A stretch of 64,000 bases of DNA from an uncultured Algibacter sp. Lineage in GTDB: Bacteria > Bacteroidota > Bacteroidia > Flavobacteriales > Flavobacteriaceae. A model generated the notes under the pieces. It saw only the letters and a list, made by a program, of their open reading frames with translations. It searched no databases and was not told the origin of the DNA. A program made the translations under genes and the position numbers. This document shows, one piece after another, positions 45,183 to 63,389 of this stretch (its first letter is position 1; each line of letters opens with the position of its first letter). The DNA lies in assembly GCF_947487575.1 (NCBI RefSeq), contig NZ_CANKXG010000006.1, positions 1-64,000 of the forward strand. Reading direction: 5' to 3'.

Positions 45183-46229
45183 CTATCTAGCAACACGCCC
45201 AGAAGCATCACCTCCCATTAATTTTTCAACTTCTGCTACAGTAGCTAAGTTAGCATCACCCTTAATTGTATGTTTTAAACAAGATGCTGCAACTGCAAAA
45301 TCTAGTGCATTTTGATCATTCTCTGGGTATTTTAATAATCCGTAGATTAATCCGCCCATGAAAGAATCTCCACCACCAACTCTATCTACAATATCAGTAA
45401 TTTGGTATTGACGAGTTTCGTACATTTTCTTTCCATCATATAAAACACCAGCCCAAGTATTATGAGATGCCGAAATAGACCCTCTTAATGTAGTAATTAC
45501 CTTTTTAGCTCTTGGGAACTTTTCCATCATTTGCTGACAAACAGATAAGAAAGCTTCAGCTTTAACATCATGACCTTGTGTTTGAACTGTAATACCTTCT
45601 GGCTTAATTCCAAAATGCATTTCCGCATCTTCTTCATTTCCTAAAACAATATCACAATAAGAAGTTATTTCAGTCATTACTTTTTCTCTATGAGCATCGC
45701 TACAATATTTCCAAAGTTTAGCTCGGTAATTTAAATCTGTTGAAATGGTAATTCCTTTTGAGCTAGCAACTTTAACAGCTTCTAAACAAACATCTGCAGC
45801 ACCTTGAGAAATAGCAGGAGTAATCCCTGTCCAGTGAAACCATTCAACACCTTCAAAAACAGCATCCCAATCAATCATTCCTGATTCAATTTCAGAAATT
45901 GCAGAATGTGCTCTATCATATACTACTTTAGAACCTCTAGATACCGCTCCAGTTTCCAAGAAATAAATACCTAAACGATCTCCACCCCAAACAATTTTAT
46001 CAACTCCAACACCTCTTTTACGCATTTCCATCATAGCACACTCACCAATATCATTCTTTGGTAAACGTGTTACAAAATCACATGACACACCATAATTAGC
46101 TAAAGAAACAGCTACGTTAGATTCTCCTCCACCATAAATAGCGTCAAAATTATTTGCTTGCGAAAATCTTAAAAATCCTTGAGGAGCTAATCTTAACATG
46201 ATTTCTCCGAATGTTACTACTTTACTCAT
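45183..46229 (-). CDS. kdgK: 2-keto-3-deoxygluconate kinase (PfkB family)
   Basis: KdgK phosphorylates KDG to KDPG with ATP. The 348-residue ribokinase-fold protein has 'GGGESNVAVSLANYG' (about residues 33-47), the catalytic Asp in 'DIVDRVGGGDSFMGGLIYGLL' near residue 287 and the substrate-binding 'LGIYFLETGAVSRGSKVVYDRAHSAI', typical of KDG kinases. It begins the kdgK-eda operon. Two palindromes with core TTAAACGTTTAA lie upstream, the nearer one 37 bases from the start, so the LacI-type regulator encoded divergently is the probable repressor. Confidence 0.94.
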   Translation of the reverse strand: MSKVVTFGEIMLRLAPQGFLRFSQANNFDAIYGGGESNVAVSLANYGVSCDFVTRLPKNDIGECAMMEMRKRGVGVDKIVWGGDRLGIYFLETGAVSRGSKVVYDRAHSAISEIESGMIDWDAVFEGVEWFHWTGITPAISQGAADVCLEAVKVASSKGITISTDLNYRAKLWKYCSDAHREKVMTEITSYCDIVLGNEEDAEMHFGIKPEGITVQTQGHDVKAEAFLSVCQQMMEKFPRAKKVITTLRGSISASHNTWAGVLYDGKKMYETRQYQITDIVDRVGGGDSFMGGLIYGLLKYPENDQNALDFAVAASCLKHTIKGDANLATVAEVEKLMGGDASGRVAR

Positions 46230-46265
46230 TTTAATTAATCTTATTTAAAAAAGTTAGTTTTTTTA

Positions 46266-46279
46266 GTTAAACGTTTAAC
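46266..46279. promoter_or_regulatory. LacI-type operator O1 upstream of kdgK
   Basis: GTTAAACGTTTAAC is a perfect 14-bp palindrome with a central CG, the hallmark of LacI/GalR operators. It lies 37 bases before the kdgK start. It shares TTAAACGTTTAA with O2; their centres are 89 bp apart, which would allow DNA looping. Confidence 0.8.
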
Positions 46280-46323
46280 CTATATTTTAAAATTAAATAA
46301 AATCCTTTGAATTTATATTAGAT

Positions 46324-46354
46324 TTTGATTTAATCATATAATACTATATATTTG
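46324..46354 (+). promoter_or_regulatory. Promoter of the LacI-type regulator gene
   Basis: TTTG (46324-46327) is followed after exactly 19 bases by TATATTTG (46347-46354), a perfect match to the Bacteroidota consensus TTTG-N19-TAnnTTTG. Transcription should begin near 46360, which rules out the reading from TTG 46352 as the translation start. Confidence 0.8.
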
Positions 46355-46372
46355 CTTAAACGTTTAAGCAAA
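46351..46372. promoter_or_regulatory. LacI-type operator O2 over the regulator promoter
   Basis: This 22-bp stretch is a perfect palindrome with the core CTTAAACGTTTAAG. It overlaps the -7 element and the predicted transcription start of the regulator gene, so occupancy would repress the regulator itself. Confidence 0.85.
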
Positions 46373-46384
46373 TATATAAAAAAA

Positions 46385-47416
46385 TTGAATACCAAAAAGA
46401 AAACTACAATAAAAGATATAGCAAACGTTTTAAATATCTCTATAGCTGCAGTTTCTAAAGCACTTCATGACGACTCTAGGATTAGTAAAAAAACTAAAAA
46501 AGCCGTAAAGCAGGTTGCAAAAAACTTAAATTATCAACCAAATCATTTGGCTAGTGCCTTAAGAAAAGGAAAAAGTAAATTAGTTGGTGTAATTGTTCCT
46601 AGAACTAACAGCAATTTTTTTTCTTCAGTCATCGAAAATATTGAAGAAGTATTAAATAAAGAAGGTTATAACATCATTATAACTCAGTCTAATGAATCGT
46701 TTAAAAAAGAGTGTGACAATATAAACACTTTATTATTCACTCAAGTAGACGGTATTATTGCTTCGATGGCCAATGAAACTATTGATTTAGAATATTTCGA
46801 AAAAATTAAAGCCAAAGGAATTCCATTAATCTTATTTGATCGTGGTGAAAATGATTTGAATGTGGATTATATTGGTATTAATGATTATGATAGTAGCCAC
46901 AAGATTGTGGAGCACTTGGTAAACCAGGGATGCAAAAGAATTGCTCACATTGGTGGTTTTAAGCGTACTAGAATATACAATAACCGTATTAGGGGTTACA
47001 TGGATGCCTTAAAAAAACATAATCTGCCTTTAGATAATGAACTTCTTATTGAAAGCAATCTCACAATTGCAGATGGAAAAGAAAAAATGCTTGAATTACT
47101 GAAGCTAAAGAAAAGACCAGATGCTGTATACGTTGCTAGTGATTATGCTGCCTTAGGAGCATTACAAGCTCTAAAAGACAAAAACATAAAAGTTCCTCAA
47201 GACATTGCTTTAGTAGGTTTTGGAGATGAACCTTTTACCGCTTTGGTAACACCTTCTATTTCAAGCATAAATCAACATAGCGCGGAAATTGGAAAACAAG
47301 CGGCACAAGTGTTTTTATCTTACACTAAAGTAAAATCAGTAAAACAAACTTTGAATAAAATTATTTTAGAGGCTAAACTAGTGATTCGGGAATCTTCAAA
47401 CACAAACATAATTTAA
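46385..47416 (+). CDS. LacI-family transcriptional regulator
   Basis: The protein of about 343 residues has an N-terminal LacI HTH ('TTIKDIANVLNISIAAVSKALHDDSRISKKTKKAVKQVAKNLNYQPNHLASALRKGKS'), the hinge 'HLASALR', and a periplasmic-binding-type core ('LVGVIVPRTNSNFFSSVIENIEEVLNKEGYNIIITQSNES', 'GCKRIAHIGGF', 'DAVYVASDYAALGALQALKDKNIKVPQDIALVGFGDEPFT'). The start is most likely TTG 46385 (MNTKKK): an upstream in-frame TTG at 46352 lies within the -7 element and operator, and no ATG is available. It is divergent to kdgK, and both face shared operators, so it probably senses KDG, KDPG or a related sugar acid. Confidence 0.92.
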   Translation: MNTKKKTTIKDIANVLNISIAAVSKALHDDSRISKKTKKAVKQVAKNLNYQPNHLASALRKGKSKLVGVIVPRTNSNFFSSVIENIEEVLNKEGYNIIITQSNESFKKECDNINTLLFTQVDGIIASMANETIDLEYFEKIKAKGIPLILFDRGENDLNVDYIGINDYDSSHKIVEHLVNQGCKRIAHIGGFKRTRIYNNRIRGYMDALKKHNLPLDNELLIESNLTIADGKEKMLELLKLKKRPDAVYVASDYAALGALQALKDKNIKVPQDIALVGFGDEPFTALVTPSISSINQHSAEIGKQAAQVFLSYTKVKSVKQTLNKIILEAKLVIRESSNTNII

Positions 47417-47679
47417 CTATATTTTTAAAACAGAAAAAAATTCAAGACATTGAAAGGCTTTTCTCTAGTAATTGGAACTGGGCTCCAACCTGTGAAATTG
47501 GTCTTATGAATTCTGTGTTGGTATTTTTTTTAACACAAGCACCGAACTTCACATCTGTATTTTTTGAAAATCATGTCCTAAAACGTATTTCGTTTTTATC
47601 TTCATTTTTGTTATTAATAGTATTTATAAAAATTTAAATATTATTAACTAATTCAACATTATTTTATACCGTTAGCCTT
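47417..47679. other. Non-coding gap between two convergent genes
   Basis: The 263-base gap separates the regulator gene from cutC on the opposite strand. A short TGTGTT/AACACA pairing across a T-run (about 47511-47534) is the only structure seen and is not a convincing terminator. Confidence 0.4.
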
Positions 47680-48321
47680 TTATAATTCTCCAACAATTAA
47701 CTTACCATGATACGCTTTAGCATTCAAAATTTTGTGAGCCAATACTATATTTAAGTTTGTTATTTTTCCGCAGGGCATAATCTCTAATTTATCACCAGCT
47801 ACTTTAATCATTTGTTTTATTAATCCCCCCCCTTCTTGCCATGTGTTTCCCTTGCCTGAAGTTAAAACTGTTTCAATGTCATTTATTTTCATAAGTTGTT
47901 TTGTAGCTTCTATTGGGTCTTTAACTGTATCTATAGCTTTATGAATGGTAACTTTCATAGGAAAGGCTAGTTTCGTCAATAATTCAATTTTAGATATATC
48001 TAATTGACCACCAATAGTAGTTATTCCAAACACTACGCCTTCAACTCCTATAGATTTACATTCCTTTATTTCTGATTTCATTATGCGGAACTCCGTTTTC
48101 GAGTATATAAAATTGCCTTCACGAGGCCTTATAATTACTCTAATTGGAATACTACATGCTTCTTTCACAGCTATTACCGTGCTCATCTTTGGGGTTAATC
48201 CATCCAAATCTAAACGGGCGCATAATTCAATTCTATCTGCACCTTGTTTTTCAGCATTTATGGCTTGTTGTATGCCTTCTACACAAGCTTCTTTAATGTA
48301 TGAATGATTTATTTGATTCAT
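47680..48321 (-). CDS. cutC: CutC-family TIM-barrel protein
   Basis: The 213-residue protein matches the CutC family ('EACVEGIQQAINAEKQGADRIELCARLDLDGLTPK', 'IPIRVIIRPREGNFIYSKTEFRIMKSEIKECKSIGVEGVVFGI', 'VTIHKAIDTVKDPIEATKQL', 'TSGKGNTWQEGG'). It is about 25 residues shorter than the E. coli protein. CutC was named for copper tolerance, but its TIM barrel and its frequent location in glycan operons of Bacteroidota suggest a sugar-related role. It is the last gene of the mannosidase operon, starting directly at the stop of the GH85 gene. Confidence 0.9.
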   Translation of the reverse strand: MNQINHSYIKEACVEGIQQAINAEKQGADRIELCARLDLDGLTPKMSTVIAVKEACSIPIRVIIRPREGNFIYSKTEFRIMKSEIKECKSIGVEGVVFGITTIGGQLDISKIELLTKLAFPMKVTIHKAIDTVKDPIEATKQLMKINDIETVLTSGKGNTWQEGGGLIKQMIKVAGDKLEIMPCGKITNLNIVLAHKILNAKAYHGKLIVGEL

Positions 48322-50253
48322 CTATTTTAAGTGAACTATACTTCTTGAAACCTTACTTCGTGTTCCATCTTTAGCTATGGATTCCACAAGAATTTTTATA
48401 AAATTATCACTTTCTTTTATTTTGAAAGGTACCACGTAATAATCTGTACCTCTTGTTTTACCAAGCCATATTTTTTGGCTGCTATTTAGGTAATAAATAT
48501 TGTGAAATTTGGCTCGTTTATCTCCGTCTATATGTACATAAAGCTCTATTTTATTTTTATTAAAAAAGGGCGTTACTTTTACCTTTGGCTTTTTTATAGA
48601 TGATGCCTTAGCTTCTGTTATTGAAAGTGATCCCAGATTTACAAACTCATTTTTATTCCCAGTAAACAAAGCTTCAACCTTAATAACTCTAAGGCCTTTT
48701 AATTCTGATAAACTAAATTGACTTTTAGTCCAATCTTGATGTATTTCTGCTAAAAAAGACTGTTGAGAACCGTTATTGGTATAAATTACAAGACTCAATG
48801 TTCCTGAACCTTTAATTGCAAAAGACAATATTTCGCTGCCAGATAATTCTAGTGCTGTTTTATATAAAGGTATTTTAATGTTTTTAACACGTTTTACTGC
48901 CTGAAACTTAACAGAAGAGCCTCCTGTATAACTTTCGGTAAAATCAAAACCTGCTTTAACCATAGTTGTATCCACCTGCCATTGCCATGTAGGCAAAATA
49001 TCTTGAATACTTAAATTATGCCATTCTTTATTTGATAACAACTTACCTCCTTCATTATAAAACCGACCTAACCCATAATTAAAATTTGTAACAAAAGGAA
49101 GCTCACTAATAACGGAACGTGCAGGAAGATATTTTGAAAACCCTTTCCATTCTTTAGATTGCCATGCAGGAACATCTTCTTCTAAAATAGTACCATTCCA
49201 AAATTTTTGTTCCTCAACATAAACTGATTCTGGTTGTTTGTCTTTTGCAATATCAAACGTAGAATTTGGCCAGTACAAACCAATAGATGTTGTATAAGGC
49301 TTTTCGTTTTTATATAGCCCTTTCCAGTTTGTTGGTGTTTTATAACTTTTACCTTGTACATCTATGCCTGAGAATAACTCCCACGGACTTCTATTAAGTT
49401 CTTTTGCACGTTTATGAGAATCTTCCAATTGGGTTTCGCTCCAACCAAAATCTATGAACATAATATCTGATAGTTTTTCATCTCCATTTTGAAAATACAT
49501 ACTATTATGATGATTTAACTCATCTTGCCAAATAACACGACCGTCTTCTATCATCGCATCATACCACATAATTTTTAGTGATGCGTTTGATTTTTTTTGA
49601 TAGTATTTTAAAAAAGCTTGCATCAAATCTGCTTCTTTTTTCTCCATACCATTGGTTTCTTGATTGATGAACCAACCTTCAAATTTGTAAAGTTTAGCAA
49701 CTTCAATAAGTTTATCGGCGACGGGAAAATTGCCATTTGCATCTTGCTGCAAAAATTCGCGAACCCACTCCTCCTTACCTCCATAAACATTTGGTGGAAA
49801 AAACACAGTTCCTAAAATTTTAACACCATTCTGGTGAGCAGATTCTATCCAAAATACTGTTGGGCTTATAATAATACCTTCGCCTGCAGACCCACCCCAT
49901 TGCACTAAATAATCTATATATTGCCAATATGGAAATACATATTGCTCTACTGTTTGAAATCCTTGTGAAGGATGATTATTAGTAGTATGAGGCGCTATTA
50001 AAGACACAATAGAAGGCTTAGTAGTTAATGCAGGAGAAATTTGTGTTGCACTATCTATAAAACGCTGTTTTAAAGGCAAATGACTTATATTAAATTTGGT
50101 ATTAATGTCCGTTTCTGGATTCCATTTTAAAAGCTCATCTATAAACCAATATGATGAAAATGGCTGATGCTTGCTAAGTTTTCTTTGAGCATTAGAAAAA
50201 TTAAAAAAAACAACGAGTACAAGTATCTGAAATGGTATTTTAAATTGCTTCAT
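48322..50253 (-). CDS. Secreted GH85 endo-beta-N-acetylglucosaminidase
   Basis: The enzyme should cut between the two GlcNAc residues of the N-glycan core. The 643-residue protein has a signal peptide (ending SNAQ, about residue 22). The catalytic barrel has 'YIDYLVQWGGSAGEGIIISPTVFWIESAHQNGVKILGTVFFPP' and the catalytic pair Asn197/Glu199 in 'FEGWFINQETNG', equal to the N-x-E of family GH85. Beta-sandwich domains follow (about residues 430-643). It is cotranscribed with a GH76-like enzyme upstream and cutC downstream, consistent with use of high-mannose N-glycans. Confidence 0.93.
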   Translation of the reverse strand: MKQFKIPFQILVLVVFFNFSNAQRKLSKHQPFSSYWFIDELLKWNPETDINTKFNISHLPLKQRFIDSATQISPALTTKPSIVSLIAPHTTNNHPSQGFQTVEQYVFPYWQYIDYLVQWGGSAGEGIIISPTVFWIESAHQNGVKILGTVFFPPNVYGGKEEWVREFLQQDANGNFPVADKLIEVAKLYKFEGWFINQETNGMEKKEADLMQAFLKYYQKKSNASLKIMWYDAMIEDGRVIWQDELNHHNSMYFQNGDEKLSDIMFIDFGWSETQLEDSHKRAKELNRSPWELFSGIDVQGKSYKTPTNWKGLYKNEKPYTTSIGLYWPNSTFDIAKDKQPESVYVEEQKFWNGTILEEDVPAWQSKEWKGFSKYLPARSVISELPFVTNFNYGLGRFYNEGGKLLSNKEWHNLSIQDILPTWQWQVDTTMVKAGFDFTESYTGGSSVKFQAVKRVKNIKIPLYKTALELSGSEILSFAIKGSGTLSLVIYTNNGSQQSFLAEIHQDWTKSQFSLSELKGLRVIKVEALFTGNKNEFVNLGSLSITEAKASSIKKPKVKVTPFFNKNKIELYVHIDGDKRAKFHNIYYLNSSQKIWLGKTRGTDYYVVPFKIKESDNFIKILVESIAKDGTRSKVSRSIVHLK

Positions 50254-50280
50254 ATTAATACTACATTCTTAATAGTGTGA

Positions 50281-51681
50281 TTATTTATTTTGATTGCGAA
50301 TTACAGCTCCTAAAACATCTAAACCTATAGACTGGCAAACCCCATTTTTATTCTTTTCTTTCATCATATCCAGATTCCACTCATAAACCTCATCAGCTAA
50401 ACCCCAAAGTTGTTTAAATTGTTTAACATATAATTTATCATTTTCCAAAGTTGTAAACTCTGGTTGAAACTGATTATTAGATTTATCTCTTGTTTCCCAA
50501 ATAGCATTTAAAGTTTTTGATACGTTTTGGGCTAAATCTATATCTATTAAGTTATCTATTTCTTTTTGACCTAAGTAACGCATCATAATACCTCTACCAG
50601 CTAAATAATCTCTACCATGTTTGGGCCCAAAACTGGATAAGCATGGTGCTTCTCTAATAATACCATCAGTGTTAGATACAAATGCATTTTTTACACCTTT
50701 TCCCAGTAATTTTATATATTTTTTTAGTTTTGATTCGTAATCATCTATTTTAAAATCGGGGTCAATATTGTTTTCAATTAAATAATCAGATAATTCATTC
50801 TTAATAGCTAACATATCTACTAAAGCAGCAATTAACATTCCTTGATCCCCAGTCCAAACCCATCCTTCTGCCCATGGCGGGTGGACTTTTTCCTGATAAG
50901 TAGAACCTTCAACAAAAGCCATTGGTCGCTCTTGAACTAATGCCCCATTAGCGTCTAGTTTCTTTAGGTACTCGAATTCCTGTAGACCGAACCAGTTATC
51001 AAACCAAACCCATTGACTATAGGCCATATCTAGATATTTATTCTTATCTTCTTTAATACTTTCATCCAATAAAAGTCTATAAATACGTGATGATAATAAA
51101 AAAAGTAATACGTTAGTTACTGTATTTTTAACCCCTTTACTATGTCCGTTGGCATCTCCATTTCTACATCCGTGAAGGACAGGTTTTGCATCCTCTGTAT
51201 AATCGTAAGCTGTTTTCTTTTTATACTCCCAGCATAAATCGGTAGATAGCTTTAAATAAGTATCAGCCAACTCTTTATTATCAATTTTTAAAAGATGTTT
51301 TCTTGCATTTAGTGCCATTAACCCCAACCAACCAAAATCATCCGCCCAAAGTTCGCCAGGATCATAACTATTGAAAAAGGTTAAATTTTCCTCTAGCATT
51401 ACTTCAATTTGTTTTTGAATATCATTAACTTGATTATCATCAGGCCAACGTTTTTGTAGCGCATCAGCAAAAACAAGACAAGCATCGAAGGTATTTCCTC
51501 TTTTCCAAAAATCGTTAAAATTCCAAACTTCCGAAAAGCGCTTAAATGCTAATAAAGCTTGATTTTTTAATATCTTTTCTGGTACATTTGAATTAAAATG
51601 AGCAAAAGAAGTAAATGAAGAAAAACTCATTAAAGACACTCCAAATAAACTCGTATTTCGAATAAATTTTCTTCTTTCCAC
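50281..51681 (-). CDS. GH76-like alpha-mannanase with Tat-type signal
   Basis: The 466-residue protein has an N-terminal twin-arginine motif 'RRKFIRN' followed by a hydrophobic core (ending about residue 27), so it would be exported folded by the Tat system. The (alpha/alpha)6-type body shows the adjacent Asp pair in 'GELWADDFGWLGLMALNAR' (Asp114-Asp115), which equals the catalytic Asp-Asp of GH76 endo-alpha-1,6-mannanases, and 'WTGDQGMLIAALVDML', a family-like helix. The match is at the family/clan level and GH76 is a likely but not certain assignment. Position within the operon supports mannan or N-glycan as substrate. Confidence 0.75.
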   Translation of the reverse strand: MERRKFIRNTSLFGVSLMSFSSFTSFAHFNSNVPEKILKNQALLAFKRFSEVWNFNDFWKRGNTFDACLVFADALQKRWPDDNQVNDIQKQIEVMLEENLTFFNSYDPGELWADDFGWLGLMALNARKHLLKIDNKELADTYLKLSTDLCWEYKKKTAYDYTEDAKPVLHGCRNGDANGHSKGVKNTVTNVLLFLLSSRIYRLLLDESIKEDKNKYLDMAYSQWVWFDNWFGLQEFEYLKKLDANGALVQERPMAFVEGSTYQEKVHPPWAEGWVWTGDQGMLIAALVDMLAIKNELSDYLIENNIDPDFKIDDYESKLKKYIKLLGKGVKNAFVSNTDGIIREAPCLSSFGPKHGRDYLAGRGIMMRYLGQKEIDNLIDIDLAQNVSKTLNAIWETRDKSNNQFQPEFTTLENDKLYVKQFKQLWGLADEVYEWNLDMMKEKNKNGVCQSIGLDVLGAVIRNQNK

Positions 51682-51724
51682 GTCTTGACTTTTAATACTA
51701 TTTAATAATGATTATTCAATTTTA

Positions 51725-52795
51725 TTACTCATTCACAGCCCTTAAAGCTGCTTTCATAAAGCCCATAGCATAAGCCATACCTGCGTACCAAGAACCATCG
51801 CAACTCATTTGCGGTGTATGGTCGGGAATTAAAATGCCTTCAAAATTATTCTGTTTTAAAATTTCTAAAATTTTAAACATATCAATATCTCCTTCATCCA
51901 CAAATACCTCTTTATAATTAGGCACTTTACCTACTACATTTCTAAAATGGATATAAGCAATTTTATTTTGTTTACTATATTTGTTTGTTGCTTCGTAAAC
52001 GTTGCCATCTGTCATTTCTGCAATGGTGCCTAAGCAAAATTCAAGATTATTACTTTCACTGGGTTGCATGTCTATAAGACGCTGATACATATCTGGTTGA
52101 TAAACCAATCGCGGTGTGTTTCTAACATAGGGCATTGGTGGGTCGTCTGGGTGAGCAGCCATTTTCACACCCGCTTCTTCTGCAACAGGAATAATTTCAT
52201 CTAGAAAATACTGCAAGCGTTCCCATAGTGTATCATGAGATACGCGTTCTACGGTTCCTTCTGGTGCATTTTCATCGTAAATCATGTTCCAAACCATGCC
52301 GTTAGGAATAGGGGTTTCATCTACTGAACCTTCCATCCCTACAGAAACAGCGCCTCCCCTAGCAAATGGTTTTTCAACTCTACTGGATACACCCGCCAAA
52401 GAAAAATTGTATCCAAAAACAGGTATTCCTGCTTTTCCAACAATACGAATCTGCTCTTTAACCAATTCTATTTGTGCTTCTTTTTTTGGGCCATCCAAAA
52501 GAATATCATGCCAAATAGAAGGGTCGAAATTTTCAATGGCATACCATTCCAAACCGTGACTATTTATCTCTTTTTTAATTTTAAGAAGTTCATCTAAAGT
52601 CCATAGCTCGCCATTACCTGCTTTACCCCAACCTCTATCGCCACCAATAGGCTGGTTGGCGTTAGATTTACTGTTGTCTGCATTACCAAAATAATCTACC
52701 ATGTGCACTACTAAATGTGTAGCTCCACATTGCTTTGCAAATTTATAATGCTGCTCATTGAGCATGTGGCGGTATAATCCAAATCCTAATTTCAT
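51725..52795 (-). CDS. Mannonate dehydratase-family protein (UxuA type)
   Basis: The 356-residue TIM-barrel protein has the UxuA family metal and substrate motifs: 'AAHPDDPPMPYVRNTPRLVYQPDMYQRLI', 'YIHFRNVVGKVPNYKEVFVDEGDIDM' and 'LIPDHTPQMSCDG'. The cysteine block 'FCLGTIAEM' departs from the CxGS-type motif in E. coli UxuA, so it belongs to a divergent branch. The family reaction is D-mannonate to 2-keto-3-deoxygluconate, the substrate of KdgK encoded about 6 kb away. No signal peptide is present. It starts six bases before the CoA-transferase stop on the same mRNA. Confidence 0.85.
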   Translation of the reverse strand: MKLGFGLYRHMLNEQHYKFAKQCGATHLVVHMVDYFGNADNSKSNANQPIGGDRGWGKAGNGELWTLDELLKIKKEINSHGLEWYAIENFDPSIWHDILLDGPKKEAQIELVKEQIRIVGKAGIPVFGYNFSLAGVSSRVEKPFARGGAVSVGMEGSVDETPIPNGMVWNMIYDENAPEGTVERVSHDTLWERLQYFLDEIIPVAEEAGVKMAAHPDDPPMPYVRNTPRLVYQPDMYQRLIDMQPSESNNLEFCLGTIAEMTDGNVYEATNKYSKQNKIAYIHFRNVVGKVPNYKEVFVDEGDIDMFKILEILKQNNFEGILIPDHTPQMSCDGSWYAGMAYAMGFMKAALRAVNE

Positions 52796-52801
52796 CTTAT
52801 A

Positions 52802-53989: not shown

Positions 53990-53991
53990 AG

Positions 53992-55903: not shown

Positions 55904-55932
55904 TTTAGATTATGATTATTTATTTTTTCAAT

Positions 55933-56985
55933 TTACAACCAGCAAATATTTACTGGTGTTTGTACTTCTAATTTTGATTGTTCTCGCAGCGTTCCATTTT
56001 TTGGATTAATTTGAAAAACAACTAATGTATTTGAATCTTGATTTGCTGCAATCAACCATTTACCTGTGTTATCAATATTGAAATCTCTAGGTGTTTTACC
56101 ATTAGTAGATTGATGCCCCACAAGATTCAATTGTTTAGTTTCACTATCTATTCTAAATATTGTAATAGTTTCTGATCCTCGGTTTGAAGCATACAAAAAC
56201 TTCCCGTTTGGATGAATTCTTATAGCTGCACCACCAATAGCTCCCGTATGATTTTCTGGAATAAAACTTAGTTTTTGTACGATTTCAGGTTTACTTCCTT
56301 GTAAGTCAGCCACAGAAATTTCACCTGTTAACTCTCCCAATATATAAGCAAAATCTTCGGCGTTATCCATAACCATGTGCCTTGAACCGCTACCCTTCTC
56401 AATTATAATATCAAGATTTGGTTTAGCCTCCCATTTTTTAGAAATAGGATTTAGTTGATATGCCTTGGCCGTATCTAAAGTTAAGTCTACTCCATACATT
56501 TTATCTTCTCCAAAAGGATATACCATATGGGCATGTGCAGCTTCTTGTCGTTCTGCATTAGGCCCTGTACCTTTGTGTTTCATCTCTTGCGAACAAGGTG
56601 CTAAACTCCCATCGTTTAGAATTGGAAAAGACAATAAATTTCCTGAAACATAATTAGCTAACACCAGTTTATCCTCAATTATATCTAAATGACATGCATA
56701 ATCTCCATTTATTTTTTGTGAGTTTAAAAGTGTTAATGCCCCATCTTTTTCAATTTTATACGCATACACTTTAGGGTTTAAGTTTTCAAACATTTCCTCA
56801 AGAGCATAGAGATATTTTTTGTCTTCAGAAATTGTAAGATAACTAGGGCTACGTTGTTTTGTATAGTACAGGTTTTTAATTTCTCCAGTTTCTAAATTTA
56901 GCTGAAAGCACCCTATACCATTACCTGTTGGGTTTTCGGCAGGTGCACCCGCTTGCGTGTAACTTCCTGTATAGAATATTGCCAT
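55933..56985 (-). CDS. Lactonase, 6-phosphogluconolactonase-type propeller
   Basis: The 350-residue protein (from ATG 56985, MAIFYTGSYTQ) is a seven-bladed propeller of the Pgl/YbhE lactonase family (PF10282), with 'YTGSYTQAGAPAENPTGNGIGCFQLNLETGEIK' at the start, 'HAHMVYPFGEDKMYGVDL', 'GSGSRHMVMD' and 'NRGSETITIFRIDSETKQLNLVGHQSTNGKTPRDFNIDNTGKWLIAANQDSNTLVVFQI', in which the His, Arg and Asn residues form the family active site. It should open sugar lactones (glucono-, mannono- or phosphogluconolactone). Twelve residues upstream is another ATG (57021) that would add a short hydrophobic start. It follows the SDR gene by 17 bases or more. Confidence 0.88.
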   Translation of the reverse strand: MAIFYTGSYTQAGAPAENPTGNGIGCFQLNLETGEIKNLYYTKQRSPSYLTISEDKKYLYALEEMFENLNPKVYAYKIEKDGALTLLNSQKINGDYACHLDIIEDKLVLANYVSGNLLSFPILNDGSLAPCSQEMKHKGTGPNAERQEAAHAHMVYPFGEDKMYGVDLTLDTAKAYQLNPISKKWEAKPNLDIIIEKGSGSRHMVMDNAEDFAYILGELTGEISVADLQGSKPEIVQKLSFIPENHTGAIGGAAIRIHPNGKFLYASNRGSETITIFRIDSETKQLNLVGHQSTNGKTPRDFNIDNTGKWLIAANQDSNTLVVFQINPKNGTLREQSKLEVQTPVNICWL

Positions 56986-57038
56986 ACTTTGTAGCGTTAA
57001 TGTTAAGAAAATCAATTTCATAAATAAATTATGATTTA

Positions 57039-57836
57039 TTATTTTTTACGTGGTGGCCGTGGGTCATACTGTATGGTATGATTCATATACGCACCATCTA
57101 TATAAAGGTCTGAACCATTAATATAGGCTGCCATATCACTAGCAAGAAAGGCTACAGTATTTGCAACTTCGGTAACATTACCTACGCGACCAGATGGAAT
57201 CCAATTGTTGAATTTTTCTCGACCAAATTTGTTAATTTCTTCTCTATTCATATTGGTTTCTATGGCACCTGGTGCTACCGAAACCACTCTTATATTACTT
57301 TCTGCTAATTCTAGAGACAAGCATTTTGAGAACATTTTTAAACCCGCTTTTGCAGAACAGTAATGAATTAAGCCTTTTCTTGGTACAACATCATGAATGG
57401 ATGAAATGTTTATGATAACCCCAGATTTCTTTAATTCCATTCTTCGCCCCGCTTCTTGAGCACACAAAAAAGGACCTTTTAGATTGATGTCTAATACTCT
57501 ATCCCATTCATCTTCTTCTAAATCTAAAACATGCTCTACGCTTTCACTACCAGCATTATTTACTAAAATATCTAAACTGCCGAGTTCTTCATCTAGTTTA
57601 TTAAACATAGCTTTAACCTCTTTAAATTTAGATACGTTTGCTCTACCAATAGCTACTTTTACATCAAAAGACTTTCTTATCTCTTCGGCAACAACTTCTG
57701 CCTTTTCTTTATTACTGTAATAATTTATAAAAACATTTGCACCACAAGCTGCTAGTTGCTTACAAATTTCGGCTCCTATGCCTTGGCTTCCCCCAGTAAC
57801 TAAAGCTGTTTTTCCAGTTAAATCAATATGTTTCAT
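57039..57836 (-). CDS. Short-chain dehydrogenase, glucose-1-dehydrogenase-like
   Basis: The 265-residue Rossmann protein has the cofactor loop 'TGGSQGIG' (residues 14-21), the 'NNAG' strand (93-96) and the catalytic set Ser146, Tyr159, Lys163 in 'NISSIHDVVPRKGLIHYCSAKAG'. The sequence around 'NWIPSGRVGNVTEVANTVAFLASDMAAYINGSDLYIDGAYMNHT' resembles glucose 1-dehydrogenases. An aldose 1-dehydrogenase role would give a lactone for the next gene. It starts 11 bases after the cupin stop and is followed by the lactonase. NAD or NADP preference cannot be read with confidence. Confidence 0.85.
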   Translation of the reverse strand: MKHIDLTGKTALVTGGSQGIGAEICKQLAACGANVFINYYSNKEKAEVVAEEIRKSFDVKVAIGRANVSKFKEVKAMFNKLDEELGSLDILVNNAGSESVEHVLDLEEDEWDRVLDINLKGPFLCAQEAGRRMELKKSGVIINISSIHDVVPRKGLIHYCSAKAGLKMFSKCLSLELAESNIRVVSVAPGAIETNMNREEINKFGREKFNNWIPSGRVGNVTEVANTVAFLASDMAAYINGSDLYIDGAYMNHTIQYDPRPPRKK

Positions 57837-57847
57837 GTTGCTTATGT

Positions 57848-58264
57848 TTACTTTACTGTATTAAAAAGAGTTTTAACCTTTTCCTTTAATTCAATTTGTT
57901 TCTCTTTACTTAATTCAAAGAATTCAAAATCAGAAATGTGTGTGTTCGATTTTTCTATAATTATAACTTCACTACCTTCTTCCATGGCTATATTATGCCA
58001 CATATCTTGTGGGATATTATAAACTTTTTGTTGTTCCATGAGTTGCAATTCAAAAACGGGCTCTCCATCTTCTATTTTGGCTGCAATTAATACTGAGTTT
58101 CCTTTTGTTAAAACAAAAACCTCATCTGTTTCTAGATGAACATCTAGTTTTTTTATATTATCAATATGCTGCTCTTCTTGATAGTTAAGTTGAGCTACTT
58201 GCCATCCTTCTCGTATTAAAAAAGGATGGTACCCATCGCCCTCTATTTTATATGTTTCTATCAT
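57848..58264 (-). CDS. Small cupin-domain protein
   Basis: The 138-residue protein is a single cupin: 'LDVHLETDEVFVLTKGNSVLIAAKIEDG' (metal-site motif with His, Glu and Glu-like residues) and 'YNIPQDMWHNIAMEEGSEVIIIE' with the second His. The N-terminal block and short length match sugar-related cupins of unknown reaction. It lies between the MFS porter (one-base gap) and the SDR gene, so a role on the imported sugar or its lactone, such as isomerisation or binding, is plausible. Confidence 0.8.
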   Translation of the reverse strand: MIETYKIEGDGYHPFLIREGWQVAQLNYQEEQHIDNIKKLDVHLETDEVFVLTKGNSVLIAAKIEDGEPVFELQLMEQQKVYNIPQDMWHNIAMEEGSEVIIIEKSNTHISDFEFFELSKEKQIELKEKVKTLFNTVK

Positions 58265-58265
58265 T

Positions 58266-59726
58266 TTATGATTTGTTTCTAGTCTTAATTAATGAATGCC
58301 AGTGTTTTTCTATGTCTTCTAAAGTTTTTCCTTTTGTTTCTGGAACAAATTTCCATATAAACCAAATGGCTGGCATGGTTAAAAAGGCATATAAAAAGAA
58401 GGTTCCAGAAGCATTAATAGTTTCTATTAAAACAGGATTGGTAAGCGTGACTACAAAACCAGTAACCATTAATGAGAAACTTCCGATAGACACCGCTAAA
58501 CCTCGTATTCTAGTGGGGAAAATCTCACTAATAATAACCCAAACAATTGGACCAAATGAGAATGCGAAACTTGCTACGTACATTAGTAACGGTATGATAA
58601 CATATTGTGAACCAATAGCGAACAATATACCAACACCAGATAGTGAAATAAAAGCGCCTACAACTCCTATAAGTAGTAGTTTTTTTCTACCAAACTTTTC
58701 AATCTGAGAAATGGCTACAAACGTAAATGCACTATTTACAACCCCCACTAAAACCGCACCTAAAAAAGCACTTTCTACACTTTTTACAGATTCGTTAATA
58801 ATATTTGGTGCATAGTACATTATTGCTGCAATACCGCTTAAATGCGCAAACATTGGAAGTAGAATACCTATTAAAAGTGGAATTCTTAAAAACGGTTGAA
58901 ACAATTCTTTAAAGCCTCCTGTCTCTTCTTTTTCTAGAGCCTCTATTTCTTTCATCTCCAGTTGTGCTTCTTCTTTTCCAAGTATCTTTTCCATTATCGC
59001 TAACGCTTCAACTTTTCTCCCTTTAGTAATTAACCATCTAGGGGTTTCTGGCACTATAAAAAGTAAGCCTAAGAATAGTAATGCAATAGGAACTTCTGTA
59101 CCAAACATACCACGCCATAACTCATCTACAAATAGCCAATTCCAAAATGAAGACGGCTCTTTAGTAATGACTCCTGCCGCATCGCCTGCATTACTTAATA
59201 CAATCCAATCTATTAAAAAGGCTAATAAAATACCTAAAGTAATGGACAACTGATATAAAGACACCATTTTGCCTCTACTCTCTGGTTTAGAAAGTTCTGA
59301 AATATAAATTGGTGCTACTACAGATGTTATACCAACACCAATACCGCCTATTAATCTGACTACTATTAAGAAATTAAAAGATGTAGTAACATCTGATGTT
59401 ATCCAAAAGTTGTTATCCAAATTACCTAAAAATTGTGGCGGTAACATAGAACCTAAGGCCGATACGGTTAAACAAAGTGCCGCTAAAATAAGTGCCTTTT
59501 TTCTTCCAAATTTATCTGTTATAGACCCTGCCACTACGCAGCCTAAAATTGTACCCAGTAATGCTGATGATACTACCCAACCTAACATGGCTGCAGACAA
59601 TTGAAAGTGCTGTTCTAAAAACGAATTACAGCCAGAGATAATAGCTGTATCGTATCCAAACAGAAATCCTCCGATGGTAGACACAAAACTGATTCCCAAT
59701 AAATAGTTAGATTTTTTAGTACTCAT
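58266..59726 (-). CDS. MFS sugar porter
   Basis: The 486-residue protein has twelve predicted membrane helices and the sugar-porter motifs: 'GGFLFGYDTAIISG' in helix 1, 'DKFGRKKALILAA', 'ESRGKMVSLYQLSITLGILLAF', 'PETPRWLITKGRK' and the closing 'PETKGKTLEDIE'. It should bring a hexose or pentose across the inner membrane by proton symport. It lies between the RraA-like and cupin genes. It is the only transport gene of the operon; no SusC/SusD pair is visible. Confidence 0.95.
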   Translation of the reverse strand: MSTKKSNYLLGISFVSTIGGFLFGYDTAIISGCNSFLEQHFQLSAAMLGWVVSSALLGTILGCVVAGSITDKFGRKKALILAALCLTVSALGSMLPPQFLGNLDNNFWITSDVTTSFNFLIVVRLIGGIGVGITSVVAPIYISELSKPESRGKMVSLYQLSITLGILLAFLIDWIVLSNAGDAAGVITKEPSSFWNWLFVDELWRGMFGTEVPIALLFLGLLFIVPETPRWLITKGRKVEALAIMEKILGKEEAQLEMKEIEALEKEETGGFKELFQPFLRIPLLIGILLPMFAHLSGIAAIMYYAPNIINESVKSVESAFLGAVLVGVVNSAFTFVAISQIEKFGRKKLLLIGVVGAFISLSGVGILFAIGSQYVIIPLLMYVASFAFSFGPIVWVIISEIFPTRIRGLAVSIGSFSLMVTGFVVTLTNPVLIETINASGTFFLYAFLTMPAIWFIWKFVPETKGKTLEDIEKHWHSLIKTRNKS

Positions 59727-59764
59727 AATATGTGGTTTTAGTTTAGTTAGTTTGCATTTTACTT

Positions 59765-60469
59765 TTACATAATTCCGAATTTATTATAAGCGTCAACAGT
59801 ACTCATACCTTCTTCTAAAGCTTTTTTAACTAACTGTTCGCCTCTAGCTTTTCCTATGGCACCCATAAATGCTTCTTCTTCAACAGCTTTAGGTACTATA
59901 ATTACACCATCTCTATCTCCATAAATAATATCTCCTGGATTGATGCGCGTACCTTCAATTTCAATTGGCACTCTATAATCTATCACTTTTCCTCGTGGAC
60001 CTTGGTCTTGTGCATAACCACCATAAGAAAATGTTGGAAAATTAAGTGATAAAACTTCGTTTGTATCTCTGGAATAGCCATGAAGTACAGCCCCAGCTGC
60101 CTTGAGTTTCATAGCTCTTGTACTCATTAATCCACCCCAAAGTGCATATCTTGGAGACGAGCCTGAACAGATGTAAACTTCATCTTCCTTTAAATCGTCT
60201 AAAGCTTCGAACATAATCCCAAAAGGTTTTTTCATCATTGGGTTATTGGTATTTTCAGCAGACTCTTCAAAAACATCCGCTTCTAACACAGGCATAGCTC
60301 TTCCTATTAAAACAAAATCTGTGTTTAAAGGTTTTATATTTGGTGGAAGAAATTGATGTTGATAACCAAGTGTATCTAAAATATCGCCTACTAAGGCAAC
60401 GAATAATTCTGATTTAGCTATACTGAATAGCTCTTTATCATTTTTCCATATTTTCTTTGTACTGCTCAT
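59765..60469 (-). CDS. RraA-like/HMG aldolase-family protein
   Basis: The 234-residue protein has the RraA-fold motifs: 'VALVGDILDTLGYQHQFLPPNIKPLN', 'ALWGGLMSTRAMKLKAAGAVLHGYSRDTNEVLSLNFPTFSYG' with the R-D pair typical of the active site, and 'NPGDIIYGDRDGVIIVPKAVEEEA'. Members include 4-hydroxy-4-methyl-2-oxoglutarate aldolases, oxaloacetate decarboxylases and RNase E inhibitors; enzyme-like motifs suggest a lyase on an oxo-acid here. It follows the mannosidase gene by 23 bases. Confidence 0.88.
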   Translation of the reverse strand: MSSTKKIWKNDKELFSIAKSELFVALVGDILDTLGYQHQFLPPNIKPLNTDFVLIGRAMPVLEADVFEESAENTNNPMMKKPFGIMFEALDDLKEDEVYICSGSSPRYALWGGLMSTRAMKLKAAGAVLHGYSRDTNEVLSLNFPTFSYGGYAQDQGPRGKVIDYRVPIEIEGTRINPGDIIYGDRDGVIIVPKAVEEEAFMGAIGKARGEQLVKKALEEGMSTVDAYNKFGIM

Positions 60470-60492
60470 ATAATTTAATTACAAAATATTAA

Positions 60493-63348
60493 TTAGTTGT
60501 TTAGTAGAATTTTATAGGTTTCAATAGCGTTGTTACCTAAATCAATTTTTATATTCTTACCATTTACATCAAGTGTTTTAACTTCCTCTTCAATTAAATT
60601 TGTTTTAATCACTTCTGAAGCTGCTTTAGGTAAAGTAATTGTTGGTTGACTATTTTTCCCATCAAGCTCAACAAGTCTTAAAATAAGTGCATTTTCATCT
60701 TCCGCTTTTTTAATAGTACTAACGCGTACCATAGGGTCTGAAACGTTAAAGAAGCTATGACTTGTAGGTAAAGTTCCTGAATAGTTTTTCTTGTCTTGTT
60801 TTACAACTTGTAATGGGTGGTTTGAACCATTTCCAAATTGATAAGACGTTTCATCATTGGCTTTATTTGATGTTATTGAAAACTCAAAATGATGATCTCC
60901 TGTTTGATGGTACCAATTCCCTTCGCCGTGGCAACTTTTATGTGATGCCATAAGAATACCTTGAAGCACTGTATATTCTACCGATTCTCTCGTTGGATCT
61001 ATCCAGTCTGCTAATGAAACATCCGTAGCTAAGGTTACTTGAAAACCATCTTTTTCTGAAGAAATAAAATTCATTACTTCTCTTGGATGAATCTCTACAG
61101 GTTTTTGATCGTAAGTTCCACCCCACGCCCACCCGCGTGGTGCTTCTTTCATTTCTGACTTTCCTACTTCTGCAATTGCAAGAGGTACTTCATATTTAAT
61201 TGTGGAATCCTCCATATCTAAAGGTAGCATGAATCTAAACTCACGATTGTGAGTACCATCCCAGTTTAAAATATCAACTGAAAAATCGATTTTTTTAATA
61301 TGGTGATGCACTTTTACATATTGAACAATATCTGCATGTTTAAACTTAACCTTGTTTTTATACTCGGTATAAACTGCCCCATCACTTACTATTTCCCAAT
61401 TTGATGTATGTTGACTTGTTTTATTAAAACCGTCCATTTTAGGTTCTGTCATTTGGGTAAACTCCCCTGCACCATTACCATCATATTTCATGGTAATAAT
61501 ATCTCCACCTGCAAATCTTGTTGTTTTTACTACTTCTTTATTTAACTTCTTATCAAACAAATAAGTTAAACCACCATCTCCTAATCGTAATGTGTAAAAT
61601 TCGTTACTTAGTGCGTTAGGGGATACCGTTTTTTTAATCTTAACTGATTTTTTTCCTTTTTTTAAGTAAAATGTAGCATATCCTAAAGAAGGAATGTTTG
61701 GAGCCACAAATTCCAGTGTTCTTTTTCCGTCTCGTTTCGTTATTTGTGAAGCAACAGCTGTTCCGTTGGCATCAACAACGTAATAATTTGAATTATCCTT
61801 TAATTCTACAGCTGCGGTAGTGGTTCTTGCCCAAGAAAGGTCGTTATAAACAACAATGGCATTGTTGCGGTTGGTTTTTACTTTTTTAGTGATTGATTGA
61901 AGTGATTTTTCAATTAATCTATCTGCTTCAGAAGCTGCAAATTCTAATTTAGAACGAAAAATACTATCGGTTATATGTCCGTTCTTTCCTCCCCAACCAT
62001 GATCTGGATAAATGGATTCTTCAAAGGCATTAGAAATTGCTTCTGTTGGATAATTATTAAACGAATCATTTAAAACGGCATCTATTGAAGCAAAAATTTC
62101 TGCTGAAGGCAATAAACGTCCTGCTTTTCTTGAAGCAGTAATTGCTTTTGCATGTCCAGGTCCATGAATGTAAGACCATATATTTGGTCTTTCCCCAGAA
62201 ATTGTTTCAAAAACGGCATCTGGTGTTTTTACTTCATTCATTAATGCGGTTACCGTAGAATGCCTTAGTATTGGCATTTTTACACCTGTTTTCTTTATAA
62301 TAGCATTCCATTCAGACACAATATTCCCATAATTTGCAGGTCCAGCAGCGTCGTTACTAATTAATATAGCAAAATGAGGTGGCAGATTTCGTTCTTTATA
62401 ATAATCTCCCCACATTTTTACTCTTGATTGTAATTTGTGCATTGCCTCAATGGCATCTTGTTCAAAAAGTTTATAAAACATAACAGCCCAGCCATAATTC
62501 CCTGGGCTATATGTTGGTATTGATGAACCGTCGGGGGAGTACCAATTATAGAAACCTTCTTTCATCCTCGAAACAAATAAGTTTTCTACACCAGATTTTG
62601 CTAGTATTTGAGGAAACTGTAACGTTCTTCCTGGTACGTCTGTATTAAAAGCGGTAACCACATCGTTACCTTCAAAATTCTTTTTAAGCCAACGTCTTCC
62701 AAAATACATTTCTCGAATCAATTGTTCATCGGTTTGCATCCCTTCATAAGGTTGATTGTAGGTTGCTCCCCACGTAAATCTTCCTTCGTTAGAGCGTGTC
62801 ATAACCTCTTGCTTTCTATCTGGAAACTCTTCAATAAATTCTTTAAGGTTTAGCGTTTGTTCCATTCCAAAATGAAACCCTTTATCGTCATGCATGATGT
62901 CTAAGGCTGGCGCAATAATATCATGTATACGTTCATGTCTACAATGGCCAGGTGTATCCATCCACGCTATATCTTGGTGTGATGAAGAAATAACATGAAA
63001 TGTACCTTCTTCAAAATACCCCCAGTCTGTTGTCACTAAAGGTGTGAATAATTGCTTTGTAGTATACTTTCTAGAAGTACCAACGAATGTCATGCTTTCT
63101 GGAGTTCCAAAAACTGGCAACCAAAGCCACGCTTTACCATCTTCATATTTAACCTCTATTGTTTTACCACTTTCTAAAACTACTTTTTTATAATGTTGAT
63201 GCTTCTCAACATCTAAACTTGCTTTAGCTAATAAATTTCCGGTAACCTCTGTATATTCATAAGGTTCTACGTAATTAATGTTGATTGTTTTTTGTCCAAA
63301 TGCAAAACTAAAAACTAGCATTAGGATTAAAATTGAGTGTTTTTTCAT
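60493..63348 (-). CDS. Secreted GH38 alpha-mannosidase
   Basis: The 951-residue protein has a signal peptide (residues 1-19, ending FGQ). The GH38 domain shows 'SSSHQDIAWMDTPGHCRHERI' (His124 and Asp126 as metal ligands) and 'AFNTDVPGRTLQFPQIL' with Asp237 as the nucleophile. The C-terminal part, about residues 550-951, is the usual beta-sandwich region. Family members remove alpha-mannose units from N-glycans. It is the first gene of a 13-gene operon with GH76-like and GH85 genes. The regulator upstream is separated by 64 bases holding a palindromic operator. Confidence 0.93.
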   Translation of the reverse strand: MKKHSILILMLVFSFAFGQKTININYVEPYEYTEVTGNLLAKASLDVEKHQHYKKVVLESGKTIEVKYEDGKAWLWLPVFGTPESMTFVGTSRKYTTKQLFTPLVTTDWGYFEEGTFHVISSSHQDIAWMDTPGHCRHERIHDIIAPALDIMHDDKGFHFGMEQTLNLKEFIEEFPDRKQEVMTRSNEGRFTWGATYNQPYEGMQTDEQLIREMYFGRRWLKKNFEGNDVVTAFNTDVPGRTLQFPQILAKSGVENLFVSRMKEGFYNWYSPDGSSIPTYSPGNYGWAVMFYKLFEQDAIEAMHKLQSRVKMWGDYYKERNLPPHFAILISNDAAGPANYGNIVSEWNAIIKKTGVKMPILRHSTVTALMNEVKTPDAVFETISGERPNIWSYIHGPGHAKAITASRKAGRLLPSAEIFASIDAVLNDSFNNYPTEAISNAFEESIYPDHGWGGKNGHITDSIFRSKLEFAASEADRLIEKSLQSITKKVKTNRNNAIVVYNDLSWARTTTAAVELKDNSNYYVVDANGTAVASQITKRDGKRTLEFVAPNIPSLGYATFYLKKGKKSVKIKKTVSPNALSNEFYTLRLGDGGLTYLFDKKLNKEVVKTTRFAGGDIITMKYDGNGAGEFTQMTEPKMDGFNKTSQHTSNWEIVSDGAVYTEYKNKVKFKHADIVQYVKVHHHIKKIDFSVDILNWDGTHNREFRFMLPLDMEDSTIKYEVPLAIAEVGKSEMKEAPRGWAWGGTYDQKPVEIHPREVMNFISSEKDGFQVTLATDVSLADWIDPTRESVEYTVLQGILMASHKSCHGEGNWYHQTGDHHFEFSITSNKANDETSYQFGNGSNHPLQVVKQDKKNYSGTLPTSHSFFNVSDPMVRVSTIKKAEDENALILRLVELDGKNSQPTITLPKAASEVIKTNLIEEEVKTLDVNGKNIKIDLGNNAIETYKILLNN

Positions 63349-63373: not shown

Positions 63374-63389
63374 ACTAAATCGGTTTAGT
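63374..63389. promoter_or_regulatory. LacI-type operator upstream of the mannosidase operon
   Basis: ACTAAATCGGTTTAGT is a 16-bp palindrome with one mismatched pair and a central CG, the pattern of LacI-type operators. It lies in the 64-base gap between the LacI-type gene and the GH38 gene, about 25 bases before the mannosidase ATG. Its core differs from O1 and O2 (TTAAACGTTTAA), so it fits a different regulator. Confidence 0.65.

Follow-up and report, generated by a model that had tools for sequence, protein, structure and literature searches.

A predicted LacI-controlled alpha-mannoside regulon of Bacteroidota with a candidate oxidative route for mannose and a dispensable CoA module

Why should mannan or N-glycan hydrolases share an operon with enzymes of aldose oxidation? 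The question is raised by the window analyzed here, the first 64,000 nucleotides of contig NZ_CANKXG010000006.1 (C6) of an uncultured Algibacter sp. (assembly GCF_947487575.1), whose genome comprises 3.5 Mb and is 99.88% complete. Thirteen genes, from GH38 to cutC, occupy the minus strand from position 63348 to 47680, with intergenic gaps of -20 to 43 bp. According to the original prediction, this operon joins GH38, GH76-like, and GH85 hydrolases with a short-chain dehydrogenase/reductase (SDR), a sugar lactonase, and a UxuA-type mannonate dehydratase, and all six are indeed present by family match, that of the GH76-like protein being weak. The seven operon genes outside that prediction encode an RraA-like protein, a major facilitator superfamily (MFS) porter, a cupin, a solute-binding-like protein (SBP), a crotonase, a CoA-transferase, and CutC. 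We consider it likely that the operon forms the core of an alpha-mannoside regulon under LacI control, which would combine an oxidative mannose route with a separate, dispensable trio of CoA-related genes (SBP, crotonase, and CoA-transferase).

In the proposed scheme, mannose would be released by the GH38 alpha-mannosidase (60493-63348; Pfam GH38N, 38C, and 38C2), which has a hydrophobic N-terminus and is probably secreted, together with the GH76-like protein (50281-51681; Pfam, 29.8 bits at a cut-off of 25.9), the GH85 endo-beta-N-acetylglucosaminidase (48322-50253; Pfam, 274 bits), both of which would also act outside the cell as secreted enzymes, and co-regulated GH92 and GH38 enzymes encoded elsewhere. 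The XylE-like MFS sugar porter (58266-59726; Pfam Sugar_tr, above the cut-off of the NCBIfam sugar porter subfamily model TIGR00879) would import mannose unphosphorylated, and the SDR of the aldose 1-dehydrogenase type (57039-57836) would oxidize it at C1 to mannonolactone. The lactone would be opened to D-mannonate by the seven-bladed beta-propeller lactonase of the Pgl family (55933-57021; Pfam Lactonase, 299 bits), and D-mannonate dehydrated to 2-keto-3-deoxygluconate (KDG) by the UxuA-like protein of a divergent subfamily (51725-52795; Pfam UxuA, 185.9 bits at a cut-off of 23.7). KdgK and Eda would then finish the conversion, via 2-keto-3-deoxy-6-phosphogluconate (KDPG), to pyruvate and glyceraldehyde-3-phosphate. 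As an alternative and uncertain end of the route, the RraA-like protein (59765-60469; Pfam RraA-like), a possible 2-keto-acid aldolase, might cleave KDG directly. The core route from free mannose through mannonolactone, mannonate, and KDG to KDPG is well supported by genomics; all substrates and the step order are predicted here, next to the gene content, conservation, residues, operators, and trio loss that were observed.

The SDR passes one NCBIfam "glucose 1-dehydrogenase" model (230.5 bits, cut-off 215), and its Glu98 and His148 align with residues of the Bacillus glucose dehydrogenase. Among the 47 rows of its alignment, which include two reference SDRs, E98 and S146 are conserved in 46, H148 in 45, and Y159 and K163 in all; S146, Y159, and K163 form the Ser-Tyr-Lys triad, and the Glu and His are assigned to the sugar site. 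In this and the other alignments, rows were selected by identity cut-offs and a few reference proteins were added. The UxuA-like protein is related to the structure 3BAN, with which it was aligned. His215, Cys254, and His283, as well as the His following Asp325, are invariant in 45 rows, which comprise the canonical UxuA and that of Microvirga as well, and Asp325 is conserved in 44 of them. The His, Cys, His, and Asp are presumably metal ligands, and we assume a role in the active protein for the following His too. In the RraA-like protein, R134 and D135 of the G-x-x-R-D motif are found in 44 of 44 rows, and we assume for this R-D pair the role described in the literature. UxuA-like genes are also paired with lactonases of another family, SMP-30, and with other SDRs in Microvirga and in the L140/L141 loci. 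More generally, other UxuA-like genes, 53-56% identical, stand with SMP-30- or Pgl-type lactonases and SDRs in L140, L141, L090, and L091. FAH proteins lie beside the UxuA-like genes in L141, L090, and L091, which we read as a diketo-type variant of this scheme.

Relatives of the locus were collected by scanning named genomes with an SBP profile, which yielded 55 loci (L numbers; genomes are given as G numbers); a sample drawn in this way favors trio carriers. At identity cut-offs set by us, 44 of the loci contain a window-type SBP, and 37 of those are at least 19.5 kb long (the SBP of L126 is truncated). The loci span the Flavobacteriaceae, Marinilabiliaceae, Marinifilaceae, Prolixibacteraceae, and Chitinophagaceae. 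GH38, the UxuA-like gene, and the cupin (counted at 27% identity or more) each occur in 33 of the 37 long loci, the SDR and the CoA-transferase in 32, RraA and the crotonase in 31, the lactonase in 30, the MFS porter in 28, LacI2 in 17, the GH76-like gene in nine, kdgK and eda in six each, and GH85 and CutC in four each. What stays constant across the loci is GH38 with the metabolic genes; GH76, GH85, and CutC were added locally. Few genomes contain the operon: among 395 genomes sampled from the class, a UxuA-like gene (E <= 1e-40) was found in four, one of them the host, and in two of these it belongs to a more distant type with 54-56% identity.

The genes for KdgK, a 2-keto-3-deoxygluconate kinase by family (45183-46229, minus strand; Pfam PfkB), and for the KDPG aldolase Eda (44421-45089, minus strand; above the cut-off of the NCBIfam equivalog NF005499) had been placed directly beyond the operon. 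Both are there, eda just outside the 45183-63348 stretch for which this had been said. However, a second LacI-type regulator, divergent from kdgK-eda and assigned by family match (46352-47416, plus strand), stands between them and the operon, so that in the window the two form separate transcription units. The relatives are more telling. In L088 and L092, kdgK begins 25 and 22 bp 3' of the UxuA-like gene and is followed by eda; in L106, L107, and L113, the gene run is CoA-transferase, UxuA-like, GH38, GH76-like, kdgK, eda; and in L126 kdgK-eda follows a truncated CoA-transferase. Dehydrogenase, lactonase, dehydratase, KdgK, and Eda belong to one gene run in L088, L092, L106, L107, and L113. 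The strongest indication that the dehydratase would yield KDG is this adjacency of the UxuA-like gene, kdgK, and eda in relatives.

The shared operator also supports the route. The first gene of the unit encodes the LacI-type repressor LacI2 (63413-64000, minus strand, cut by the window end; Pfam Peripla_BP_3), which is complete in L004 with 341 amino acids. A candidate LacI2 operator ACTAAATCGGTTTAGT at 63374-63389, 5' of GH38, is an exact match to the form MCTAAANCGNTTTAGK. Only three exact sites of this form exist in the whole 3.5-Mb genome, and each of them adjoins alpha-mannosidase or repressor genes: the one 5' of GH38, one 5' of LacI2 (C6:64447-64462) that differs from the strict form by one base, and one at C6:101014, between the divergent CoA-transferase 2-GH92-GH92 genes and two GH38 genes. 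The strict form has a single match in the window at up to two mismatches, the site 5' of GH38, where 0.15 are expected and at least one was obtained in 12 of 100 shuffles. With one mismatch allowed in the whole genome, a reversed control yielded 13 matches versus nine for the operator, so that the exact sites alone are informative. Among 14 selected relatives, the operator has 18 exact sites and the control four; eight of the ten genomes bearing the operon or a part of it have two or three each, and the four operon-free genomes have none. When the two end positions are left free, this slightly looser form has 62 sites, spread over 33 of the 55 loci, and the reversed control has none. A palindrome, most commonly of the form ACTAAAYCGRTTTAGT, is located at most 300 bp 5' of LacI2 in 17 of 22 named loci; no exact operator was found 5' of LacI2 in L088, L094, L114, L130, and L134 of this set. 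Through predicted binding to these sites, LacI2 probably exerts joint control over alpha-mannosidases, oxidative enzymes, and CoA-transferases. The unit around the third operator extends over positions 1355-15293 of L142 (C6:94-108 kb), and the GH92 genes in it are followed by genes of the tagaturonate reductase and altronate/galactarate dehydratase types (L005).

The latter genes bear on a different explanation of the UxuA-like protein. The hexuronate pathway runs through UxaC, UxuB, UxuA, KdgK, and Eda, and it has the UxuA family, KDG, KdgK, and Eda in common with the route proposed here; unlike in that route, mannonate is formed from fructuronate and not from mannose. By this textbook role of UxuA, the window gene would serve the use of glucuronate via fructuronate and mannonate, its mannosidase neighbors being incidental, and the tagaturonate reductase and altronate/galactarate-dehydratase-type genes downstream of one co-regulated unit would fit. 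We nevertheless hold this to be highly improbable. A canonical UxuA is encoded elsewhere in the same genome, in a hexuronate-type locus with TRAP-, UxaC-, KduI-, and KduD-type genes (all names but UxuA were assigned by eye), and in the tree a long branch separates the window subfamily, which stands beside an aldose-type SDR and a lactonase, from canonical UxuA. In Gramella, UxuA is listed among the hexuronate genes, as far as the available part of that report goes (PMC4891872).

Oxidation by the same logic could also concern a different sugar from these glycans, or a modified one, for instance O-methylated mannose or glucose. The resemblance of the SDR to glucose dehydrogenases would suit such a substrate, as would the related SBP-CoA-transferase modules in fucose/rhamnose-type loci. 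It is unlikely all the same, given that the hydrolases of the regulon belong mainly to the alpha-mannosidase families GH38 and GH92 and that the UxuA-KdgK-Eda adjacency fits mannonate and KDG.

Mannose thus remains our preferred substrate, and several observations must be weighed against the route as a whole. The SDR, the lactonase, and UxuA are broad families, and the UxuA-like protein falls under both NCBIfam uxuA cut-offs (121.2 of 199.55 and 158.2 of 191 bits), and is therefore a divergent relative not filed as a UxuA equivalog. KdgK also scores below the NCBIfam cut-offs (its best model, a KHG/KDPG aldolase-sugar kinase fusion, gives 483 of 700 bits), whereas Eda passes. The lactonase is missing in seven of the 37 long loci, and kdgK-eda is nearby in only six. 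In the window, kdgK-eda has a LacI regulator of its own and a palindrome GTTAAACGTTTAAC in the intergenic region (46230-46351) that differs from the LacI2 operator and is perhaps the operator of the divergent regulator. Two genomes, G539 and G454, contain parts of the operon and no exact operator. The mannose pathway leaves the CoA trio unexplained. Finally, phosphorylation of mannose may be available to the host: a gene for mannose-6-phosphate isomerase (PMI) lies on the same contig (C6:125330), a PfkB-type kinase might act on the sugar, and the Hexokinase_2 search was silent in the control genomes. ROK kinases are present in seven of the ten genomes with the whole operon or a part of it and missing in three, compared with 14 of 29 other genomes without them and 17 of 39 overall, the host included.

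The absence of hexokinase and PMI genes from the region, to which the original prediction had drawn attention, therefore says little alone. Extended to the whole 99.88% complete genome, a profile search gave no match for ROK and Glk anywhere, with ROK found in 12 and Glk in four of 14 control genomes. We rejected a link between the pathway and loss of sugar kinases, ROK absence not being tied to the operon; the lack of ROK and Glk is weak, permissive support, and for the host genome alone. The predicted order SDR, lactonase, UxuA, KdgK, Eda is backed by conservation, by the residues, by kdgK-eda inside the locus in six relatives, by the shared operator, by relatives that keep the oxidative enzymes without an intact trio, and by the pairing of UxuA-like genes with another lactonase family. 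It was incomplete, in that it ignored the trio and RraA, and kdgK-eda is not part of the same unit in the host genome.

What, then, is the role of the trio? Its three genes encode the signal-less SBP (54749-55903; Pfam SBP_bac_1), a crotonase of the enoyl-CoA hydratase type with both catalytic Glu present (53992-54768), and a class III (CaiB/BaiF) CoA-transferase (52802-53989; Pfam CoA_transf_3, 374 bits). In a simple hydropathy test on rows beginning at the aligned first residue, none of the 27 SBP sequences of alignment A2 had a strongly hydrophobic N-terminal stretch. W9, D10, H11, R13, R39, D62, and H63 are invariant in this family. No ABC permease or ATPase genes were found among the window operon genes, and a transport function of the SBP was rejected because it has no export signal and the operon no ABC genes. 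The crotonase has E116 and E136 in 40 of 40 rows, which we take to be the catalytic pair, and its best solved relative is 3-hydroxypropionyl-CoA dehydratase. Asp143 of the CoA-transferase, presumably catalytic, is conserved in 39 of 39 rows; no NCBIfam model exceeds its cut-off for this protein. Two other functions were considered. That of a hydroxycinnamoyl-CoA lyase, hinted at by crotonase-aldehyde dehydrogenase neighbors in L063 and L067 and, less closely, L072, was rejected, since the top models of the crotonase are enoyl-CoA hydratases, all below cut-off; the aldehyde dehydrogenases of the three loci are nearest to PRK10090 (490.9, 446.4, and 479.5 of 500 bits, respectively). For glyceryl-CoA or lactate routes, no evidence was found.

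Several relatives have lost the trio or carry it in broken form and still retain the oxidative enzymes. Locus L139 of genome G326 contains LacI2, GH38, RraA, MFS, SDR, lactonase, UxuA-like, and GH76-like genes and no trio gene in 20 kb; going by its label, G326 is a part of the SBP-scanned sample and would then lack any SBP match. In L133 and L134, the SBP is reduced to an N-terminal stub and the CoA-transferase to a C-terminal one, followed by an intact UxuA-like gene; both loci keep the SDR, and no lactonase was detected in L134. In L126, the SBP and CoA-transferase are broken and the crotonase is missing; the same genome (G531, also L145) has retained a UxuA-like gene, located 3' of LacI2 and SusC/SusD-like genes with the operator. 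L054 contains CoA-transferase remnants only. At the cut-offs used for the 37 long loci, the CoA-transferase is missing in five and the crotonase in six, L117 having a crotonase of 40% identity. In the UxuA-like tree, L139 and L133 are on separate supported branches among trio carriers, which suggests independent losses of the trio if the operon was inherited like the UxuA-like gene. The opposite case is seen in L097 and L101, where the available DNA contains the trio and GH38 and no SDR or UxuA-like gene. Each part can thus stand without the other, and the trio looks like an add-on.

These losses also bear on the possibility that the trio is the main route, with the aldonate converted to a CoA thioester, the crotonase dehydrating it to 2-keto-3-deoxyacyl-CoA, and the UxuA-like protein playing another part. 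Such a role would agree with the presence of trio genes in most loci of the SBP-drawn sample, with the operator directly 5' of the CoA-transferase-UxuA pair in nine of 55 loci, with the 4-bp overlap of these two genes in three of six loci measured, with a second CoA-transferase under the same operator, and with L097 and L101. The loci without a trio (L139) or with a broken one (L133, L134, and the L126/L145 genome), where the SDR and UxuA-like genes were retained, make it distinctly unlikely.

As a separate module beside the oxidative mannose route, the trio would probably handle sugar acids as CoA thioesters. A mechanistic parallel is the carnitine system, in which the class III transferase CaiB cycles CoA and the crotonase CaiD acts in dehydratase and racemase activities (PMC2131755). 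As in the trio, a class III CoA-transferase and a crotonase cooperate there, with CoA cycled between substrate and product; the resemblance is confined to mechanism, the substrate being carnitine and no SBP-like partner being named in the available part of that report (PMC2131755). Tentatively, we suggest a CoA-cycling sugar-acid module: the CoA-transferase might form an aldonyl-CoA, the crotonase might epimerize or dehydrate it by removal and re-addition of water across C2-C3, and the SBP-like protein might be a substrate-binding subunit or an enzyme, so that stray aldonates, such as gluconate made by the same SDR, would be fed to the UxuA-like step.

The wider SBP family supplies a context for this suggestion, with related modules in loci for sugar oxidation in both Bacteroidota and Proteobacteria. 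Of 72,556 plasmid records, 146 showed the family. In 13 annotated plasmid-record regions (a fourteenth carried no annotation), a CoA-transferase adjoins the SBP in 11, lies 4.5 kb away in Jannaschia, and is missing in Microvirga, where the SBP occurs with two UxuA-like genes, an SMP-30 lactonase, an SDR, and RraA. Persicobacter, Rufibacter, Thalassospira, Nitratireductor, and Roseibium combine SBP-CoA-transferase genes with Gfo/Idh, MaoC, and fucose/rhamnose-type genes, Sinorhizobium K101 has the order SDR-CoA-transferase-SBP-crotonase, and the SBP region of Methylobacterium nodulans contains MaoC and four-carbon-acid genes. In Bacteroidota, a CoA-transferase adjoins the SBP in 16 of 16 loci of the L020-L025 and L061-L070 sets; L060 has a distant SBP and no CoA-transferase. 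A general module recurs in L015-L019, L020-L025, and L061-L070, consisting of SBP1, one or two CoA-transferases, often SBP2, Gfo/Idh, and MaoC, and often accompanied by RhaT- or FucP-type transporters, fucosidases, and lactonase- or FAH-type genes. The one SBP2 tested, that of Persicobacter, also has no hydrophobic N-terminus. In L070 and L076, the SBP-CoA-transferase genes lie beside genes for PdxA-type proteins and four-carbon-acid kinases, identified from the annotation in L076 and by eye in L070, a context that suggests the use of C4 sugar acids.

The oxidative pathways for L-fucose and L-rhamnose employ a mutarotase, dehydrogenase, lactonase, dehydratase, and FAH protein. They resemble the route proposed here in the succession from sugar to lactone, acid, and 2-keto-3-deoxy acid, and related SBP-CoA-transferase genes occur in such loci. 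They differ in acting on deoxy sugars, in import by ABC or RhaT transporters, in a Gfo/Idh dehydrogenase, and in having MaoC for the crotonase; a replacement of crotonase by MaoC in a deoxy-sugar version of the CoA-cycling module is a correspondingly speculative extension of it.

How new is the oxidative route itself? Non-phosphorylative oxidation of mannose was held to be known mainly from archaea, and within our literature search this holds. In Thermoplasma acidophilum, it involves AldT, ManD, and KDG aldolase (PMC6901390); as in the scheme proposed here, a dehydrogenase oxidizes free mannose at C1, a mannonate dehydratase takes part, and the route includes KDG. In addition to its archaeal origin, that route differs in lactone hydrolysis, which is called spontaneous, and in the use of KDG aldolase instead of KdgK-Eda; what is presented is a designed cell-free cascade and not a glycan operon, and the part of the article available describes no CoA genes (PMC6901390). 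Such oxidation has also been proposed for haloarchaea: for the beta-mannan cluster of Natronoglomus mannanivorans, a semi-phosphorylative Entner-Doudoroff route was put forward by the authors (PMC10963439). Here too, mannan hydrolases are accompanied by mannonate dehydratases and by a sugar-dehydrogenase-like protein, and the figure legend for the clusters names an RraA gene; the cluster differs in its archaeal host, in encoding beta-mannan enzymes, and in its IclR regulator, and the available portion of the text mentions no trio of CoA-transferase, crotonase, and SBP (PMC10963439). In a literature search conducted mostly at the title and abstract level, we found no report of an oxidative mannose route in Bacteroidota or with alpha-mannosidases, and no published counterpart of the trio. 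The oxidative mannose route itself is known; the novelty lies in its association with alpha-mannosidases and with the CoA trio.

Among the remaining genes of the operon, the small cupin (57848-58264) has no Pfam match and a weak match to the WbuC cupin, and the CutC family protein (47680-48321; Pfam, 163 bits), like the lactonase, passes the Pfam model and misses the NCBIfam cut-offs. CutC lies directly 3' of GH85 in the window and in all four named loci with GH85 (L081, L084, L085, and L127), and it may have a role in the use of the N-glycan core. For GH38, the function of a mannosylglycerate hydrolase was rejected (74 of 1138 bits). By family annotation, there is no SusC/SusD pair among the operon genes of the window; TonB-receptor and SusD-like genes adjoin the operon in some relatives, for instance L098, L102, and L104. 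Upstream of the operon, L004 (C6:63.3-83 kb) contains GH115, GH125, GH92, and GH28 genes and, as judged by eye, a FucP-type MFS transporter, a hybrid two-component regulator, and a phosphoesterase. An open frame antisense to the MFS gene (58252-58707, plus strand) gave no sign of being a gene, and no search was made with it.

If the proposed route is correct, some Bacteroidota use mannose from glycoproteins or mannans without prior phosphorylation, and annotation based on hexokinase and PMI would miss this mannose flux. The operator defines a regulon that is directly testable. The trio raises the wider question of why CoA-transferases, hydratases, and a cytoplasmic binding-like protein recur in oxidative sugar loci across phyla; the CoA genes could be a sign of sugar-acid chemistry of a type not yet described, and if the CoA-cycling module is real, CoA-thioester chemistry on the acids of neutral sugars would be common to Bacteroidota and Proteobacteria.

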